Source: an uncultured Actinomycetes bacterium (GTDB taxonomy: Bacteria; Actinomycetota; Thermoleophilia; Solirubrobacterales; Solirubrobacteraceae). From it: a DNA stretch of 8,034 nt. The notes below the pieces were generated by a model, which worked only from the letters and a program-made list of their open reading frames with translations, had not been told where the DNA came from and did no database searches. The DNA lies in the NCBI GenBank assembly GCA_937888775.1, contig CALAQT010000196.1:1-8034 (forward strand), given 5' to 3'. Below, in pieces: positions 1-8,034 of the stretch (positions within the stretch are counted from its first letter, which is position 1; every line of letters starts with the position of its first letter). Position numbers and translations under genes: made by a program.

Positions 1-1
1 T

Positions 2-58
2 GTGACCGTCAACCGAGGATCGCCGTCGAAGTTCCACGACGATCCGGACATCCTCTGA
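2..58 (+). CDS. C-terminal end of an unidentified element gene (5' partial)
   Basis: A short open frame enters from the left edge and stops at TGA 56-58, giving a tail that ends in KFHDDPDIL. Most of its codons end in G or C (about 15 of 18), like the other genes here, while the competing frame through the same bases is much poorer in G/C at third positions. I therefore read it as the 3' end of a gene that starts outside the window. A GTG at its first codon could in principle be a start, but an 18-residue gene is unlikely. The product is not recognisable from so few residues. Confidence 0.45.
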   Translation: MTVNRGSPSKFHDDPDIL

Positions 59-69
59 GCGAGTCCTAC

Positions 70-285
70 GTGCGCCGCCACCCAGACGTGTTCGGCAGGC
101 TCGATGGCTTCCCAGGTGTCGTCCTTCACGACCGTGCGCGCGTGGAATCGTTGCTGACCGCACGCTGCCCTAGCGAGCAGTCACAAGCGGTCGCAACGCC
201 AGTCGCAGAGCCAAGGCCGACGACCAAGCGACGGCGAGTTATTGGCACCAGCGCCAACCGGCTGCCAATTCGGGGTGAGCGATGA
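70..285 (+). CDS. Small hypothetical element protein (71 aa)
   Basis: A GTG start gives a 71-residue basic protein. The first 30 residues, containing HPDVFGRLDGFPGVV and RARVESLL, have a faint look of a small winged-helix DNA-binding fold (a short hairpin, then a helix), but no family is recognised. The second half is a proline- and arginine-rich tail (TTKRRR). Its TGA overlaps the ATG of the next gene by 4 bp, which supports translation and coupling to the terminase genes. The start is uncertain: the frame is open to the left edge, and a CTG at 55-57 would overlap the upstream stop by 4 bp in the style of this element. The Shine-Dalgarno match before GTG 70 is weak. DNA recognition is only a guess. 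Confidence 0.5.
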   Translation: MRRHPDVFGRLDGFPGVVLHDRARVESLLTARCPSEQSQAVATPVAEPRPTTKRRRVIGTSANRLPIRGER

Positions 286-722
286 CCGAGCCGACCCCCC
301 ATGCTTTGCATCTGAGCGAGCTTGCTCCGCCGCGCGGTAACGCTTTGACGCACGGAGCATTTTCAGATTCGCTCGTTAGCCCGCGGGCACGCGAGCTTGC
401 CGAGCAGACCCTCGGCGCGCACCTTCACCTGGACGCGGCCAAGGACGGCCCCGCCATCGCCCGGTACTGCACGCTGCTGGCGCGCATCGAGCGCGTCAAC
501 TGCTGGCTGGCCGACCAGCCCGACGACGTGTTCAGCGACCCGGAGATGGGCACGGTGCACGCGGCCCACGAACGGCTCGACAGGTGGAACCGGCAGGCCG
601 AGGCGGCTGAGCACCGGCTGGCCATCGACCCCTACACCCGGTCCAAGCTCGGGCTGGTGCAGGCAGCGGCCTTCGACCTCGCCCGTGCGATGAGCGACGC
701 CGGGGAGGAGCACGATGGCTGA
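282..722 (+). CDS. Probable terminase small subunit
   Basis: This 146-residue protein directly precedes and overlaps the large terminase gene, the standard place for the small subunit that recognises the packaging site and delivers DNA to TerL. Its N-terminus carries RGNALTHGAF (about residues 18-27), a GN...HGA pattern I associate with phage small-terminase-like proteins. The remainder is mostly helical, with a central helix around residues 60-76 and a C-terminal segment (IDPYTRSKLGLVQAAA, about 115-130) resembling the P27-type small terminase tail. The start ATG overlaps the preceding stop as ATGA and has a weak GGTGAG upstream. The call rests mainly on position plus these short motifs. An unrelated small packaging or head protein is the alternative. 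Confidence 0.65.
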   Translation: MTEPTPHALHLSELAPPRGNALTHGAFSDSLVSPRARELAEQTLGAHLHLDAAKDGPAIARYCTLLARIERVNCWLADQPDDVFSDPEMGTVHAAHERLDRWNRQAEAAEHRLAIDPYTRSKLGLVQAAAFDLARAMSDAGEEHDG

Positions 723-2394
723 CGCGACTACCCCCGGCGCTTTGCAGTCCAGCCTCTCCGAGTTCGCGCGCGCAGCCGGTTGTCCGCTCGCGGATTTCCA
801 GATTCGGGCTTTGGAACTGCTGCTGCGGATCACGGTGATCGTGGCGCCCCGGCAGAGCGGCAAGTCGCGCTCGCTGGCGATCTTGGCGCTCTGGTGGGCT
901 TACCGGCAGCGCAAGCAGCGCATCTTGATCGTGTCCGCCGGGGAGGAAGGCTCGCGGCGTCTGCTGGCGGAAGTCCGGCGGATCGCGCAGGGCAGCGACC
1001 TGCTCCGCGGGAGCGTGGTCGATGAGTTCGCGGGGCTGTTGACGCTGAGCAACGGCTCGGAGATTCGGAGCGTCCCGGCGTCGGAGAGGCAGGTGAGGGG
1101 CTGGTCCACGGACCTGCTGCTGGTCGATGAGTGCGCCCTGGTGAGCGACGACCTGCTGTTGGGGGCGGCGATGCCGACCACGGCGGCGCGGTCCGAGGCG
1201 AGGATTGTCCTGGCGTCGTCCGCGACGGTGGCCGCGGGCAGCTTCTACGACCACGCGAAGCTGGGCGAAGCGGGCAGCGAGCATGTGCGGACCTTCCGCT
1301 GGTCGTTGACGGAGTGCCCGTGGATCGGCGCGAGCGCGATTGCTGCGGCGCGGGAGTCGATGAGTGAGCTTCGGTTCAGCGCCGAGTACGAAGGGCAGTT
1401 CGCGGGGTCGGGTGATTCGCTGTTCCCGCGCGCGGTGCTGGACCGGGCGACCGTGGACTACACCCCGGACTTGATGATGGGCGCCACGGGGCTGGCGCGC
1501 GGGCTTGGCGGAGTGGACCTTGCGACGACGAACGACCTGTGCACCAAAGTCGTCATCGCGCGGCTGGCGGTCCCTGGCCGTCGCGTGTTCGGGGTCCGCT
1601 ACGCCCATGCGTGGCCGCAGGGCGAGTTGCTGCACAAGGTGTCCGGGGACATCGTGCGGAGCCCGGCTCTCCTTCACATCCTGAGCGTGGATGGCACCGG
1701 CATGGGCGGCCCGATCTTCACTCAGGAAATATCCCCGCGCTACGAGCGGGAGCGGCCCTACACGGCGGGCGGCGGGCGGCTCCCGTCGCGCGGGCTGGTG
1801 ATGGTGCAGGAGAAGCTCTACAGCATCGGCGCGGAACCTCCGCCGAAACCGCGGCGGCGGCGCGAGCCGTCTGCGTCGTTCGTGACGGACAAGCGCGCCA
1901 TCGTGTTTAGCTCGGCACTCAAGGCGGCGGGCTACAGCGGGCTGCGGCTGATGATCGACCGGGGCGAGCTTGTGATCCCGGCGAGCGCCAGCGACCTGAT
2001 CCGCGAGATGCTGATGCTCCGAGTGGACCTGAGCCCGACGGGCGTCGAGCGCATCGAAGCGGCGGGCAGCGGACGGGACGACCTGTGCGACGCGCTCATG
2101 CTCGCCACGGCGCCCTACCGGCGCGACGGGTGCAGTTGGAAAACGTATCTCGCTGATCTGCTCAACCCGGCCAGCGTGCTCCCGGAGCCGTATCTCCCGG
2201 CGGCGGTCGCGGCATCGGAGCACGTGGACGGCCCGGACGGGCTGCGCGTGCCCAGACGCCCCGTGTGGATGAGCGTGGCGGGCAGCGAGCTAACCCTTCC
2301 CCCCGGCCTTGACCTCGTTGACCCGGAAACCCGAGAGGTGCAGCGGCAGGTGCGCGAGGCCCTGAGAACCCCAACCACAAGGAGCACACGATGA
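715..2394 (+). CDS. Phage terminase large subunit (TerL)
   Basis: This is the DNA-packaging motor: an N-terminal ATPase that translocates DNA into the prohead and a C-terminal RNase H-like nuclease that cuts it. Visible motifs in the 559-residue product are Walker A APRQSGKS (residues 44-51), Walker B LLLVDEC (134-140, acidic D138/E139), the coupling motif ASSAT (167-171), and nuclease acidic residues in GVDLATTND (D268), SVDGTGMG (D326) and RDDLCDALMLA (around 455-464). Length is within or slightly above the usual range. A basic, proline-rich stretch (PPPKPRRRR, about 375-383) lies between nuclease motifs, and about 95 residues follow the last motif. The ATG is set by GGGGAGGAG 4 nt upstream and overlaps the small-subunit stop by 8 bp. 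No portal gene follows, which is unusual. Confidence 0.95.
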   Translation: MADATTPGALQSSLSEFARAAGCPLADFQIRALELLLRITVIVAPRQSGKSRSLAILALWWAYRQRKQRILIVSAGEEGSRRLLAEVRRIAQGSDLLRGSVVDEFAGLLTLSNGSEIRSVPASERQVRGWSTDLLLVDECALVSDDLLLGAAMPTTAARSEARIVLASSATVAAGSFYDHAKLGEAGSEHVRTFRWSLTECPWIGASAIAAARESMSELRFSAEYEGQFAGSGDSLFPRAVLDRATVDYTPDLMMGATGLARGLGGVDLATTNDLCTKVVIARLAVPGRRVFGVRYAHAWPQGELLHKVSGDIVRSPALLHILSVDGTGMGGPIFTQEISPRYERERPYTAGGGRLPSRGLVMVQEKLYSIGAEPPPKPRRRREPSASFVTDKRAIVFSSALKAAGYSGLRLMIDRGELVIPASASDLIREMLMLRVDLSPTGVERIEAAGSGRDDLCDALMLATAPYRRDGCSWKTYLADLLNPASVLPEPYLPAAVAASEHVDGPDGLRVPRRPVWMSVAGSELTLPPGLDLVDPETREVQRQVREALRTPTTRSTR

Positions 2395-2588
2395 CCGATG
2401 ACACCATGTTGGCCGAGCTGCGAGCGGAGCTTGCCAAACAGCGGGAGGACAGCGACGCCCGGTACGACGCTCTGGTGGCAGAGCTTGACCGCCAGAACCA
2501 GAAGGACGAGGAGCCCAAGCCCCTCACGGCGGCGGGCGTGGCGGAGACGCTAAGCCGCGGATACGAACAGGACGGGGGCGAGTCGTGA
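2391..2588 (+). CDS. Small acidic coiled-coil protein (65 aa), unknown function
   Basis: The 65-residue product is dominated by a charged helix (residues 4-37, with spaced leucines in LAELRAELAK and ALVAELDRQN) typical of a short coiled coil, followed by an acidic, flexible tail. The ATG overlaps the TerL stop by 4 bp and sits 6 nt after AAGGAG (2379-2384). Its own stop overlaps the next start as GTGA, so it is expected to be made in step with TerL. The family is not recognised. Its place just after the terminase would suit an accessory packaging, scaffold or head-assembly protein, but that is inference from position only. Confidence 0.75.
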   Translation: MTDDTMLAELRAELAKQREDSDARYDALVAELDRQNQKDEEPKPLTAAGVAETLSRGYEQDGGES

Positions 2589-3235
2589 GCGCCATAGCGG
2601 AGCGTCTGGAGGAGCTTTACACCGCGGTGTCCGCTGCCAAGCACCGAGTAGCCGAACTCGACGCTGCGCGCCGGGATGGTGCCCGCCGGGTGGAGCGCGC
2701 CCGGATGGAACTGCTGGAGCACTACCGCGCCCAGGGGCGCGGCGAGGCACCCGCGGACGATAAGGGCGACCTGGCGATGGGACAGGAGCCGATCACGGAG
2801 GAGCAGCGGTTGGTGGCCGCTCTGCACGAGGCCGAAGGCGGCCTAACGATGCGCCCGGTGCAGTACCCGATGGGCAACGGCGACGCGGACATCGCGCTGG
2901 TCGCGGTCGATGAGCGCGCCGAGGCGATGCACGAGGGCGCCGTGGAGATGCTCGCGGAGCGCGAGAGCGAACTCCAACAGCACGTGGCGTCGAACCTCAC
3001 CGCGCTGGCGGTGGAGCGCGCTCCGCGCGCCGGGGAAATCCGGGACCGGGTGGCCGTGGTGCTGATAGAGGGCCGGGCGGTCGCGGATGCCTATGAGCGA
3101 ACCAAGAACGGCTGGGTCGAACTGCTCAAGCTCGCGGGCCGGAAGGACCTGATCGCCGAGATCCCGGCGAACCCGCTGCGCGGCATCAACGGATTGGAGG
3201 CGGCGGTGTTGCCGATGCCGGTCAGCTTCACGTAA
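2585..3235 (+). CDS. Helical protein of unknown function (216 aa)
   Basis: The product starts at a GTG that overlaps the previous stop by 4 bp. It is rich in Ala, Glu and Arg and looks almost wholly helical. An N-terminal coiled coil (about residues 3-48) is followed by a short less-helical part (MRPVQYPMGNGD, about 88-99), a second long helix region (about 108-145), and a more globular C-terminus ending PLRGINGLEAAVLPMP. No catalytic motif, signal peptide or membrane segment is seen. It occupies the slot where a portal would normally follow TerL, but it is far too short for a portal (usually more than 400 aa) and shows no resemblance to one. A scaffold, structural or capsid-modifying protein is possible. 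I do not recognise a family. Confidence 0.8.
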   Translation: MSAIAERLEELYTAVSAAKHRVAELDAARRDGARRVERARMELLEHYRAQGRGEAPADDKGDLAMGQEPITEEQRLVAALHEAEGGLTMRPVQYPMGNGDADIALVAVDERAEAMHEGAVEMLAERESELQQHVASNLTALAVERAPRAGEIRDRVAVVLIEGRAVADAYERTKNGWVELLKLAGRKDLIAEIPANPLRGINGLEAAVLPMPVSFT

Positions 3236-3240
3236 CCCGC

Positions 3241-3311
3241 TGCGGCGGCGTGCCGTGCGTCCTGCGCTGGCCCTGGCTAGGCGCCCGCAGGACGCACGGC
3301 ACGCCGCCGCA
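3241..3311 (+). repeat. 26-bp perfect inverted repeat (strong hairpin; possible terminator)
   Basis: The left arm (3241-3266) and right arm (3286-3311) are exact reverse complements with a 19-base loop. The arm starts TGCGGCGGCGTGCCG and is very GC-rich, so the RNA hairpin would be extremely stable. It begins 5 nt after the stop of the 216-aa gene and ends 15 nt before the Shine-Dalgarno site of the next gene. There is no run of T after the stem on either strand, so a classic intrinsic terminator is not certain, although actinobacterial terminators often lack the U-tract. Other options are an mRNA 3'-end stabiliser, a recombination or packaging site, or a binding site for a dimeric protein. 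Confidence 0.85.
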
Positions 3312-3326
3312 AGACGACAAACGGAC

Positions 3327-3333
3327 AAAGGAG
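3327..3333 (+). promoter_or_regulatory. Shine-Dalgarno site AAAGGAG
   Basis: AAAGGAG lies 7 nt before the GTG at 3341. It is near-consensus and is the main reason for accepting the short 51-codon gene that follows it. Confidence 0.75.
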
Positions 3334-3340
3334 CACCGCA

Positions 3341-3496
3341 GTGGACGAACCCATAGACGAGCCCACCAAGGACGCCATCAAGTTCGGCGTCACCGAAGAA
3401 CCACCGGAAGAACTGCCGCCCGGCATCGCCGGGCTGGTCGGAGCGGGTGGGCTTGGCCCGCTCGCCCCGACCCCGCCCACCGAAATCACCCACTAA
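3341..3496 (+). CDS. Small acidic proline-rich protein (51 aa), easily missed
   Basis: GTG 3341 to TAA 3494-3496 encodes 51 residues. The N-terminal half is acidic (MDEPIDEPTKDAIKFGVTEE), followed by PPEELPPG and a Gly/Pro-rich end with GLVGAGGLGPLAPTPP. A near-consensus AAAGGAG stands 7 nt upstream, and codons are strongly G/C-ending. It lies after the 26-bp hairpin and 16 nt ahead of the 88-aa gene, so the two probably form a small transcription unit or a read-through part of the terminase operon. Composition suggests a largely disordered peptide. The family and function are unknown. Its small size means automated callers would often drop it. Confidence 0.65.
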   Translation: MDEPIDEPTKDAIKFGVTEEPPEELPPGIAGLVGAGGLGPLAPTPPTEITH

Positions 3497-3500
3497 CACC

Positions 3501-3506
3501 AAGGAG
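3501..3506 (+). promoter_or_regulatory. Shine-Dalgarno site AAGGAG deciding the 3513 start
   Basis: AAGGAG stands 6 nt before ATG 3513. It selects this start over an in-frame upstream GTG at 3447, which would place 22 extra codons inside the preceding gene. Confidence 0.75.
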
Positions 3507-3512
3507 ACCATC

Positions 3513-3779
3513 ATGGCTCGATTGAAACAAGCAGGGCCGCCCCGCGAGGTGCTGACCCCGGCGCCCATGAACCCCAAGCACCTCACCGACCGCCAGAACG
3601 GAATCCCTGCCCAGTTCCGGGCGGCCGACAAGGAAGGCGAGCAGGCCGCGCAGGACGGGACCACGGCTGGCGCTGACGGCATGCCACCGAACCCGAACAC
3701 CGCGCCCGGCAGTAACAAGAGCATCCCGGCGCCGTTCCGGGACGCCATCGTCACGCCCGCCGGGTTCCACGTACCCTAG
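3513..3779 (+). CDS. Small protein with duplicated IPAxFR motif (88 aa)
   Basis: The 88-residue product begins at ATG 3513 after AAGGAG. It is rich in Pro, Ala, Gly and Asn, and probably mostly unstructured. A short motif occurs twice, exactly 40 residues apart: GIPAQFRAA (30-38) and SIPAPFRDA (70-78), which suggests an internal duplication or two copies of a peptide that binds a partner. No transmembrane segment or enzymatic motif is visible. It ends just before a hairpin that probably terminates this small unit. The family is not recognised. A structural tail or head accessory peptide, or a helper-interaction peptide, are only possibilities. Confidence 0.7.
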   Translation: MARLKQAGPPREVLTPAPMNPKHLTDRQNGIPAQFRAADKEGEQAAQDGTTAGADGMPPNPNTAPGSNKSIPAPFRDAIVTPAGFHVP

Positions 3780-3783
3780 CCGC

Positions 3784-3817
3784 TATGCCCGGGGACTTGC
3801 CGCAGTCCCCGGGTATA
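3784..3817 (+). terminator. Hairpin terminator after the 88-aa gene
   Basis: A perfect 10-bp GC-rich stem (CCCGGGGACT 3788-3797 with AGTCCCCGGG 3804-3813) has a 6-base loop, and a G-U plus three A-T pairs extend it to 14 bp. It starts 5 nt after the preceding stop. The right flank lacks a clear T-run, so termination is probable rather than certain. Confidence 0.6.
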
Positions 3818-3826
3818 TGCTAGACT
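3797..3826 (+). promoter_or_regulatory. Putative promoter of the RHH regulator-integrase operon
   Basis: A -35-like TTGCCG (3797-3802) and a -10-like TAGACT (3821-3826) are separated by 18 nt, a good fit to housekeeping sigma consensus in actinobacteria. The expected start of transcription is near 3833, about 37 nt before the regulator's GTG. The -35 box covers the last base of the stem and five of the six loop bases of the hairpin terminator just described, so both elements share DNA. Confidence 0.55.
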
Positions 3827-3834
3827 CCCCTGGC

Positions 3835-3845
3835 GTTAGGCTAAC
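3835..3845 (+). promoter_or_regulatory. Palindrome GTTAGGCTAAC, candidate operator
   Basis: GTTAG-G-CTAAC is a perfect 11-bp odd palindrome 8 nt after the -10 box, at the expected transcription start. This is a natural place for the RHH protein encoded just downstream to bind and repress its own operon. The assignment is inferred from position and symmetry. Confidence 0.45.
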
Positions 3846-3869
3846 AACGACGCAGAAAGGCAGGCTACA

Positions 3870-4279
3870 GTGGACTTTACGGTGTATGTCCCCGATGACC
3901 TCGGGGAGCGACTAAAGAGCGTGGCGCCGAAGGTGAACTTCTCGGCACTGTTCCGGGAGGCGGCGAAATCAGAGCTAGACAGGCTCGACCGCACCGCCGA
4001 GATGGCTGGAGATGCGCAGGAGTTCGAGTTGGACATGCGGTTGCCGGAGGGCACCCCTTACGTGGGCGTGATCCGAGGCGAACAGCTCACCAACACCCAC
4101 AACGGGTGCACCTTCTATCTAACCGACGACGGGCGGGTGCTCGCCTACTACGACAAACCGGCGGAAGGTGAGCCATACGTCGTGCAGGTCGAAAATGCTG
4201 GGGTCCAGTCGGGCTACGCCTCCAACGAAGATTTCATCAAGGTGGCCGCGGCGTTGGGCGAAAAGGCACGGTGTCAGCT

Positions 4280-4283
<4 letters not shown>
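3870..4283 (+). CDS. Ribbon-helix-helix DNA-binding regulator with C-terminal domain (137 aa)
   Basis: Residues 1-40 fit an RHH (Arc/CopG-like) fold: a short strand (DFTVYVPDD), then two helices (LGERLKSVAP and NFSALFREAAKSELDRL). RHH dimers insert the strand into the major groove and typically repress their own promoter. A second domain (about 62-137) with YVGVIRGEQL, FYLTDDGRVLAYYD and FIKVAAALGEK resembles domains I recall next to integrases in actinobacterial elements, but I cannot name it. The GTG start follows AGAAAGG by 9 nt. Its stop overlaps the integrase ATG by 4 bp, so the two are probably co-translated. It likely controls integrase expression or excision direction. A type II antitoxin is a less likely alternative, since no toxin gene is adjacent. 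Confidence 0.7.
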
Positions 4284-5622
<1,339 letters not shown>

Positions 5623-5632
5623 GGAGCCACCG

Positions 5633-5638
5633 AGTTTA
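5633..5638 (-). promoter_or_regulatory. Possible -10 box of tRNA-Arg
   Basis: On the minus strand, TAAACT ends 10 nt before the mature tRNA 5' end, a suitable place for a -10 box. No convincing -35 is seen 17-18 nt further upstream. Confidence 0.4.
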
Positions 5639-5741
5639 TTGCGGGGAAGCGGTACTCGTCGCGTAGCGCCCCCGAGGTCGTGCGGCAATCCCGCCGCCAG
5701 CGTGGCCGGGCGGCCTCTCGGGCTTCCAGGTCCCTCGCCTG

Positions 5742-5747
5742 TAGGCT
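5742..5747 (+). promoter_or_regulatory. -10 box TAGGCT for leaderless transcription of the lipoprotein gene
   Basis: TAGGCT fits TANNNT and ends 6 nt before GTG 5754, so transcription should begin at or next to the start codon. No Shine-Dalgarno site is present, and no clear -35 is seen. Confidence 0.55.
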
Positions 5748-5753
5748 GACGCC

Positions 5754-6092
5754 GTGAAACCTTCCCTTGCCTTCCTGCTGGCCGTCTTCGCGTTTGTCGT
5801 CACCGGCTGCGGAAGCACGAGCACCGGAACCGCGACCACCGGAACCGCGACCATCGCTACTACGACCGGGCAGTCGACGGTGCAGGTCCAGGTCAAGGAA
5901 TACCCGGCCCAGGTCCAGCACAACATCATCGTCGGCTGCACCACGAGTGGAGGCACGGCATCACAGTGCCGTTGCTACCTCAAGAAGCTCGAGGCTCACC
6001 TCACGGTCAAACAGCTGGCCGCCATCGAACGGGCCACCGGCCCGCCGTCTCCCAGCTTGGCCAAATACGCGAAGGAATGCCAGGGCGCATAG
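5754..6092 (+). CDS. Small secreted lipoprotein with four further cysteines
   Basis: The GTG start gives 112 residues. A basic start and hydrophobic segment (residues 4-16) lead to the lipobox VTGC, with Cys19 as the lipidation site, so the mature protein should be anchored on the outer face of the membrane. A Ser/Thr/Gly linker (20-42) follows, then a small domain with C62, C72, C74 and C109, which could form two disulfides (pattern C-x9-C-x-C plus a C-terminal Cys). I recall similar small Cys-containing proteins in soil actinobacteria but know no function. It lies just outside the integrated element and is probably host DNA. The start is supported by the signal peptide and the TANNNT box. 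Confidence 0.8.
   Translation: MKPSLAFLLAVFAFVVTGCGSTSTGTATTGTATIATTTGQSTVQVQVKEYPAQVQHNIIVGCTTSGGTASQCRCYLKKLEAHLTVKQLAAIERATGPPSPSLAKYAKECQGA
5823..5852 (+). repeat. Tandem 15-bp repeat in the lipoprotein linker
   Basis: ACCGGAACCGCGACC occurs twice in direct succession. It encodes the TGTAT repeats of the Thr-rich linker after the lipidated cysteine, so linker length may vary between strains by slippage. Confidence 0.8.
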
Positions 6093-6109
6093 GGCAGCGC
6101 GGGTGCGAG

Positions 6110-6115
6110 TAGCAT
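6110..6115 (+). promoter_or_regulatory. -10 box TAGCAT for leaderless transcription of the hydrolase gene
   Basis: TAGCAT fits TANNNT and ends 7 nt before GTG 6123. There is no Shine-Dalgarno site in the 30-nt gap after the lipoprotein gene, so the hydrolase probably has its own leaderless promoter. Confidence 0.55.
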
Positions 6116-6122
6116 CACCGCC

Positions 6123-7004
6123 GTGCCCGACCGCGCCGATGTGACGTTCGACTCAGGCGGCGAGCGCTGCGCGGCCTGGCTGTACAGCCCGCAGGGAGCA
6201 ACCGCGTGCGTCGTCCTTGCCCACGGCTGGACGGGGGTGCGCGAGCAGCGCCTGGACGCGTTCGCCGAGCGCTTCGCCGCCGCGGGGCTCGCCGCGCTCG
6301 TCTTCGACTACCGCCACTTCGGAGCCAGCGAGGGACAGCCGCGCAGCCTGCTCGACATCGGGCGCCAGCTCGCCGACTGGCGCGCCGCCGTCACCTACGC
6401 GCGCAGCCTCGAGGGCATCGACGCTGAACGCGTGGCCCTGTGGGGCAGCTCCTTCAGCGGCGGGCATGTCATCGAAATCGCCGCCCGCGACCCGCGCATC
6501 GCCGCCGTCGTCGCGCAGGTGCCCTTCATCGATGGCCTCGCCAACCTCATGCGCCTCGGCAAGGTGCACTCGCTGCGCCTCACCGTCGAGGGCATCAAGG
6601 ACCAGGCGGGTGCGCTCCTGGGCCGCCCGCCGCACATGCTCGCCTCCGTCGGGCCGCCCGGCTCCACCGCCGTGATGACCTCGCCCGACGCCGAGCCCGG
6701 CTTCCTCGCGCTGAACCCTGAGGGTCTGTCCTGGCCCAACGAGGCCGCCGCGCGGATCGCTCTGCGCGTTGCCGCCTACCGCCCGATCCGCAGCGCCGAG
6801 CGAGTGCGCTGCCCGATCCTCTTCGCCGTCGCCGACGAGGACGCCGTCACTCCGCCCGACCTCGCCGAGAAGGCAGCCATGCGTGCGCCCCACAGTGAGA
6901 TCCGCCACTACCCCGGCGGGCACTTCGACCCCTACGTGGGCGAGCTGTTCGAGCGCGTCGTCGCGGACGAGACCGAGTTCCTGCTGCGCACCCTCGGCGG
7001 ATAG
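6123..7004 (+). CDS. Alpha/beta hydrolase (dienelactone hydrolase/acyl-esterase-like)
   Basis: The 293-residue product has a complete alpha/beta-hydrolase layout: oxyanion-hole region VVLAHGWTG (31-38), the FDYRHFGASEG strand-loop (61-71), nucleophile elbow LWGSSFSGGH with Ser110 as predicted nucleophile, acid residue in VADEDAVTPP (probably D240, possibly D238) and histidine H267 in YPGGHFDPY. The elbow reads G-S-S-F-S-G rather than strict GxSxG, a variation I associate with some actinobacterial hydrolases of this group. A cap-like insertion lies between about 140 and 215. No signal peptide, so it is cytoplasmic. Substrate unknown; an ester, lactone or acyl-peptide is possible. The GTG start is supported by the adjacent TANNNT box and by the N-terminal strand beginning at once. 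Confidence 0.85.
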   Translation: MPDRADVTFDSGGERCAAWLYSPQGATACVVLAHGWTGVREQRLDAFAERFAAAGLAALVFDYRHFGASEGQPRSLLDIGRQLADWRAAVTYARSLEGIDAERVALWGSSFSGGHVIEIAARDPRIAAVVAQVPFIDGLANLMRLGKVHSLRLTVEGIKDQAGALLGRPPHMLASVGPPGSTAVMTSPDAEPGFLALNPEGLSWPNEAAARIALRVAAYRPIRSAERVRCPILFAVADEDAVTPPDLAEKAAMRAPHSEIRHYPGGHFDPYVGELFERVVADETEFLLRTLGG

Positions 7005-7017
7005 GGCAGTCGGGAGG

Positions 7018-7031
7018 GCGCCCCGGGGCGC
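7018..7031. repeat. 14-bp GC palindrome between hydrolase and RNase Z genes
   Basis: GCGCCCCGGGGCGC is a perfect palindrome in the 70-bp gap. As RNA it would give only a 5-bp stem with a 4-base loop and has no T-run, so it is at best a weak terminator. It may be chance in GC-rich DNA. Confidence 0.3.
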
Positions 7032-7061
7032 GCGAACCGCACGCGGCGCGTCTGCCGTCGC

Positions 7062-7067
7062 TACCGT
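7062..7067 (+). promoter_or_regulatory. -10 box TACCGT for leaderless transcription of the RNase Z gene
   Basis: TACCGT fits TANNNT and ends 7 nt before ATG 7075, with no Shine-Dalgarno site between. It supports ATG 7075 over a longer frame that enters from inside the hydrolase gene. Confidence 0.5.
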
Positions 7068-7074
7068 TGCCCGC

Positions 7075-7990
7075 ATGGACCTCTCGGTGTTCTTCCTGGG
7101 CACGGCCGGCTCGGTGCCCAGCGCACGGCGGGGGCTGCCCGCGGTGCTCATCACCCGCGGCGGGGAGCGGCTGCTCGTGGACTGCGGCGAAGGCACCCAG
7201 CGCCAGCTGCTGCGCTCGGTGGGGCTCGTGGATCTGGACATGGTCTTCATCACGCACTTCCACGCCGACCACTGGCTGGGCCTGCCGGGGATGCTGAAGT
7301 CCTTCGCGCTGCGCGATCGCAGCGCGCCGCTGACCGTCTACGGGCCCGAGGGGCTCAGGGAGCTGATGGGCGAAATGCGCGTCGTATACGGCCGGCGCCT
7401 GCCGTATGAGCTGACCCTCCAGGAGATCGAGCCGTGGGGCGAGGTCGAGCTCGACGGCTATCGCGTGGCCGCGGTGCCTGTCAGGCACGGCAACCGCGTC
7501 GCCTACGGATACGCGCTGATCGAGGACGATCGCCCCGGCGAATTCGACCCCGCGGAGGCCGAGCGCCTCGGCGTCCGCCCGGGCCCGGACTTCGGGCGCC
7601 TGCAGCGCGGGGAGGTCGTCGGGGGCGTGCGCCCCGAGCAGGTGATGGGCGCCTCCCGCGAGGGGCGGCGCGTCGTCATCTCCGGGGACACCGCGCCCGT
7701 GCAGGCACTCGCCGTGGCCGCGCACCAGGCCGACCTGCTCGTCCACGAGGCCACGTTCGCCGAGGAGGAGGCCGAGCGCGCACGCGAGACCTTCCACAGC
7801 ACGGCGCGCCAGGCCGCCGAGCTCGCGCGCGAGGCCGACGTCGGGCTGCTGGCGCTCACGCACATCTCCAGCCGCTACGCGGGCGGGGAGATCCGCGAGC
7901 AGGCGCGTGCGGTCTTCGCCGCCACCGAGGCGCCCCGCGACTTCGACACGATCGAGGTGCCGCTCCCGGAGCGCGGGAAGGCGACGCTCC
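7075..7990 (+). CDS. rnz: Ribonuclease Z, 3' end lost at the contig end
   Basis: This metallo-beta-lactamase-fold endonuclease trims the 3' trailers of tRNA precursors that lack an encoded CCA, in the cytoplasm. The core is complete: GTAGSVPS (9-16), DCGEGTQRQ (36-44), metal-binding THFHADH (H61, H63, D65, H66), H138 in VRHGN, D205 in SGDTAP, the HEATF and HST segments (about 224-243), and H263 in LTHISSRY. The exosite arm for tRNA (about 152-190) is also present. Genomic sequence supports 305 residues, close to the full family length, so probably only a few C-terminal residues are missing. The frame continues to a TAG at 8023-8025, but that part is adapter. The tRNA-Arg in this window is a plausible substrate because it lacks CCA. 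Confidence 0.95.
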
Positions 7991-8034
7991 AGATCGGAAG
8001 AGCGTCGTGTAGGGAAAGAGTGTAGATCTCGGTG
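7991..8034. other. Illumina TruSeq adapter contamination
   Basis: The last 44 bases begin AGATCGGAAGAGCGTCGTGT and continue through AGGGAAAGAGTG to GATCTCGGTG, which is the well-known Illumina universal adapter read-through sequence. Genomic sequence therefore ends at 7990. In the RNase Z frame it translates to the familiar artefact GRASCRERV. The match is from memory but is long and exact in appearance. Confidence 0.97.

Follow-up and report, generated by a model that had tools for sequence, protein, structure and literature searches.

The last 44 bases of an 8,034-nucleotide stretch from an uncultured Actinomycetes bacterium of the family Solirubrobacteraceae (assembly GCA_937888775.1, contig CALAQT010000196.1, positions 1 to 8,034; this whole stretch is referred to below as the window) are, with a probability that we put at about 97%, Illumina TruSeq Universal adapter, likely carried in by an untrimmed read that continued past a short insert. 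The reading frame of a ribonuclease Z (RNase Z) gene runs into this adapter and ends there, after 11 spurious residues, at a spurious TAG stop.

Adapter sequence at the contig end

Every base of positions 7991-8034 (44/44) agrees with the beginning of what we take to be the TruSeq Universal oligonucleotide (58 bases) in reverse complement. With uniform base frequencies, the chance of such a match at a single position is about 3e-27. The adapter begins with its first base and points outward; read rightward off the contig, its bases stand in the order in which a sequencing read meets the adapter after the insert. It occupies the final 44 of the 8034 bases, the end of the window being assumed to be the end of the record. 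The leading A presumably corresponds to the dA-tail/T-overhang position of TruSeq chemistry. The P5 and P7 adapter sequences that we tried share no 12-mer with the rest of the window, its left end included. The features at the junction are as follows.

7991..8034, plus strand: bases 1-44 of the reverse-complemented, 58-base Illumina TruSeq Universal adapter (44/44 exact; identical 44-mer at IMG/VR contig ends)
7075..7989, plus strand: RNase Z gene, native part (305 codons), with the conserved domain complete by profile and the C-terminal tail absent (TIGR02651; alignment with 120 relatives)
7990..7992, plus strand: hybrid codon CAG (Q306), its first base genomic and the other two from the adapter (sequence reading)
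7993..8022, plus strand: false C-terminus IGRASCRERV, adapter-encoded (translation; absent in 120/120 listed relatives)
8023..8025, plus strand: false stop TAG from the adapter (open reading frame (ORF) list, translation)

The RNase Z frame opens at an ATG at 7075, and its end reads ...ERGKATL-Q-IGRASCRERV-TAG. Only residues 1-305 are native; the false glutamine Q306 combines the genomic C7990 with the first two adapter bases, AG. In the mechanical ORF list the frame appears as closed, spanning 6769-8025 with an upstream TTG as its first start. The original prediction had placed the universal adapter at 7991-8034 and had the RNase Z frame continue to an in-frame TAG within it; the exact match, made by aligning the adapter as had been proposed, agrees with the former, and the ORF list and translation agree with the latter. 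The false ending that it named, IGRASCRERV, is indeed encoded by the adapter; with the hybrid Q306, which the adapter encodes in part, the affected residues number 11 and not 10.

The native part scores 302.0 bits against the bacterial RNase Z profile TIGR02651, above the curated cut-off of 292.95, with residues 5-295 aligned to profile positions 2-302 of 302. It also contains HFHADH, in agreement with HxHxDH, which we take to be the zinc-binding motif of RNase Z. With the false tail attached the score is 301.8 bits, versus 302.0 without it. The conserved domain is thus complete, and the error escapes the family model. Unlike the listed relatives, which carry a C-terminal tail after the conserved domain, the window protein lacks one.

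Relatives past the junction and other contig ends with the same adapter

To the protein comparison we admitted the best 120 of 8000 scored candidates. All 120 go on past the last native residue, for 18-68 residues (median 30) and in other sequence; the four positions that follow read VRWS in 71/120 and ERWS in 15/120, and the adapter peptide is found in 0/120. The claim of the original prediction that the true C-terminus is missing is thus upheld. In the closest of these relatives, P0001 (339 residues, 96% identity over 97% of the query), 34 residues lie beyond the junction, and by this comparison the lost end of the window protein probably amounted to about 34 residues and a stop. In the genome collection, 79 RNase Z loci were kept among the matches listed, and 19 of these were read past the junction. 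A stop follows after 10-66 residues in 18 of them (the count for L126 starts at residue 301, the end of its match); the last, L134, runs off its contig. The refuting case named in the original prediction, a relative with the 44 bases as continuous chromosomal sequence, was looked for and not encountered in the 79 kept loci, in none of which even the first 20 adapter bases occur. RNase Z was also found in 89 of 72,556 plasmid records, all at less than 60% identity and of no use for comparing the junction.

If the 44 bases were genuine chromosome and the gene truly ended in IGRASCRERV, the frame would be expected to stay open across the junction and to be closed by a stop, as it is. Exact identity to a synthetic oligonucleotide over 44 bases contradicts this explanation, as do the tail shared with none of the 120 listed relatives, the absence of the first 20 adapter bases from the 79 kept genome loci, and the presence of the identical 44-mer at numerous other contig ends in IMG/VR. 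We consider a genuine end extremely improbable, and rejected a biological tail on the grounds that the listed relatives and genome loci continue otherwise and without adapter.

In IMG/VR, the identical 44-mer is present in at least 120 stretches; the counts below refer to the 122 matches listed among these. Searching with the reversed 44-mer as a control returned 0 matches in the same database, and a 22-mer of the window taken shortly before the junction matched no IMG/VR record. In record coordinates, 116 of the 122 point outward with a contig end no more than 300 bases away, 102 of them with one no more than 30 bases away, and three stop exactly at the 44th adapter base, as the window does. 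The full 58-base adapter is present in 39 matches, of which 36 continue with A (32 with at least three A) and three end there; poly-A after the adapter marks a read that has passed the end of its template. The listed stretches come from 55 assembly identifiers, and 26 of these have more than one adapter-bearing stretch, although in one of the 26 the two stretches belong to a single record. We also considered whether the k-mer of the assembler fixes the adapter length, an idea that found no support: exact runs reaching the end of a stretch occur at each length between 44 and 58 bases inclusive, the query covering runs of 44 bases or more.

Some observations weigh against adapter read-through as the explanation of the window's end. 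The remaining six of the 122 matches (L025, L047, L076, L089, L117, and L120) are, in record coordinates, internal or directed inward rather than near a contig end and pointing outward; L076 is a 1,617-base piece of a 147,747-base record, with the adapter match near the end of the piece. Furthermore, C7990 cannot begin a codon for valine or glutamate, the commonest residues at this position (83 and 18 of the 120 listed relatives), and is compatible with leucine (CTN) or histidine, which together account for 16/120. Finally, the junction codon begins with C in only one of 18 readable genome loci (L126, whose match ended earlier, is excluded). C7990 may therefore either differ genuinely from the relatives or have arisen by error where the insert ends.

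Adapters thus also occur inside assembled records, and the adapter in the window, though real, could have been joined to the contig by a ligation chimera or an assembly join. Such non-terminal joins do happen, as the six matches demonstrate, and in two of the annotated records examined (KT254133.1 and PQ462667.1, see below) the adapter lies well inside a finished genome. In the window, by contrast, the adapter is terminal, directed outward, and present from its first base, as read-through predicts; we therefore regard a chimeric or assembly join as unlikely. Under the preferred explanation, an untrimmed read would have run off the end of a short insert into the adapter, which would thereby have entered the contig; the assembler would have stopped there when coverage or the graph ended, and a gene caller would then mark the adapter-closed RNase Z gene as complete.

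False protein ends in other records

The same tail can close other genes. The 44-mer has three forward frames: two are closed by a TAG, after DRKSVV and after IGRASCRERV respectively, and the third stays open over all 44 bases. Among the listed IMG/VR matches, 33/122 contain an ORF that an adapter stop closes and whose native part is 100 codons or longer, with the ending IGRASCRERV in 21 and DRKSVV in 13 (L004 has both). These ORFs were called mechanically, from a start codon followed by at least 100 native codons, and are distinct from annotated genes. Adapter tails probably produce false, seemingly complete protein ends in a systematic manner, such that unrelated families gain identical spurious C-terminal motifs across metagenome protein databases.

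Annotated collections were searched with the 44-mer at megablast sensitivity. Matches turned up in seven phage records (50,697 searched), one plasmid record (72,556 searched), and one Escherichia coli genome (5,426 searched); KT254133.1 alone matched over all 44 bases. The case most similar to the window is XIJ71931.1, an endonuclease by name, of Escherichia phage HMD-P3 (PQ462667.1): its annotated coding sequence enters the adapter (33 exact bases), whose TAG terminates it after DRKSVV. It differs from the RNase Z case in the frame used and in the location of the adapter, which is inside a record labelled complete genome and not at its end. Together with the mechanical ORF list, this deposited example supports the earlier expectation that an automated annotation would report the truncated gene as complete.

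Three further matches were observed in the annotated collections. In phiFenriz (KT254133.1), a phage record labelled complete genome, all 44 adapter bases are internal and lie between annotated genes (L200:1501-1544). The circular phage record MW202825.1, marked UNVERIFIED_CONTAM, has 33 exact adapter bases in the hypothetical protein UOF82384.1, on the opposite strand (L201:1001-1033). In the complete E. coli chromosome NZ_CP123349.1, 28 exact adapter bases are found in fliI, a gene that the annotation gives as a frameshifted pseudogene (L203:1501-1528).

Contamination of this sort is an ordinary type of database error that has been described before. Moeller et al. (2024, PMC11536531) report that adapter sequences accumulate at the ends of contigs in MGnify genomes; among 15,657 species assemblies, 1110 were enriched at p < 0.01. 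The instances described in that paper adjoin portions of a strand-specific adapter, one of which, CGTCGTGTAGGGAAAGAGTGT, is also present in the window. The subject there is the accuracy and contiguousness of assemblies, whereas ours is the effect on one predicted protein; a term search of the paper's main text returned 0 occurrences of "protein" and "open reading frame". A search for the adapter peptides themselves led to a study in which the translated 5' TruSeq adaptor is deliberately employed as a linker (PMC7949039). Our literature searches, at the level of the listed titles and beginnings of abstracts, named no work on adapter-encoded protein ends, which may nevertheless exist.

Neighbouring genes and significance

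To the left of position 5550 the window carries phage genes; they are listed here together with a tRNA gene.

715-2394: terminase large subunit, a phage gene
within 4271-5622: phage-type integrase, with its frame end at 5611
5550-5622, minus strand: tRNA-Arg(CCG)

At 5611 the integrase frame terminates within the sequence antisense to tRNA-Arg(CCG), and the final integrase residues, RPAGIEPATSRSGGERSIR, are encoded by the tRNA. A minus-strand tRNA-Arg(CCG) is located upstream of RNase Z in 12 of the 14 relatives' loci scanned (of the 79 kept). The tRNA at 5550-5622 is likely the attachment site of a prophage-like element, and the phage genes, together with the tRNA-Arg(CCG) found upstream of RNase Z in relatives, would fit an element integrated in the tRNA-Arg(CCG) of a Solirubrobacterales chromosome. 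For the terminase large subunit, the relatives among phage records are all distant, the best-ranked at 23.8% identity and all 989 below 60%; in IMG/VR, two stretches fit a pattern and none was confirmed as a relative. Directly after an ORF ending at 3235 there is a perfect 26-bp inverted repeat (3241-3311), with 19 bases between its arms.

A gene that is truncated and carries a false stop can seem complete, satisfy its family model all the same, and enter the databases; the adapter peptides themselves could serve as flags in database cleaning. For the organism, the artefact is a matter of data quality: it says nothing new about the bacterium and is of low biological interest.
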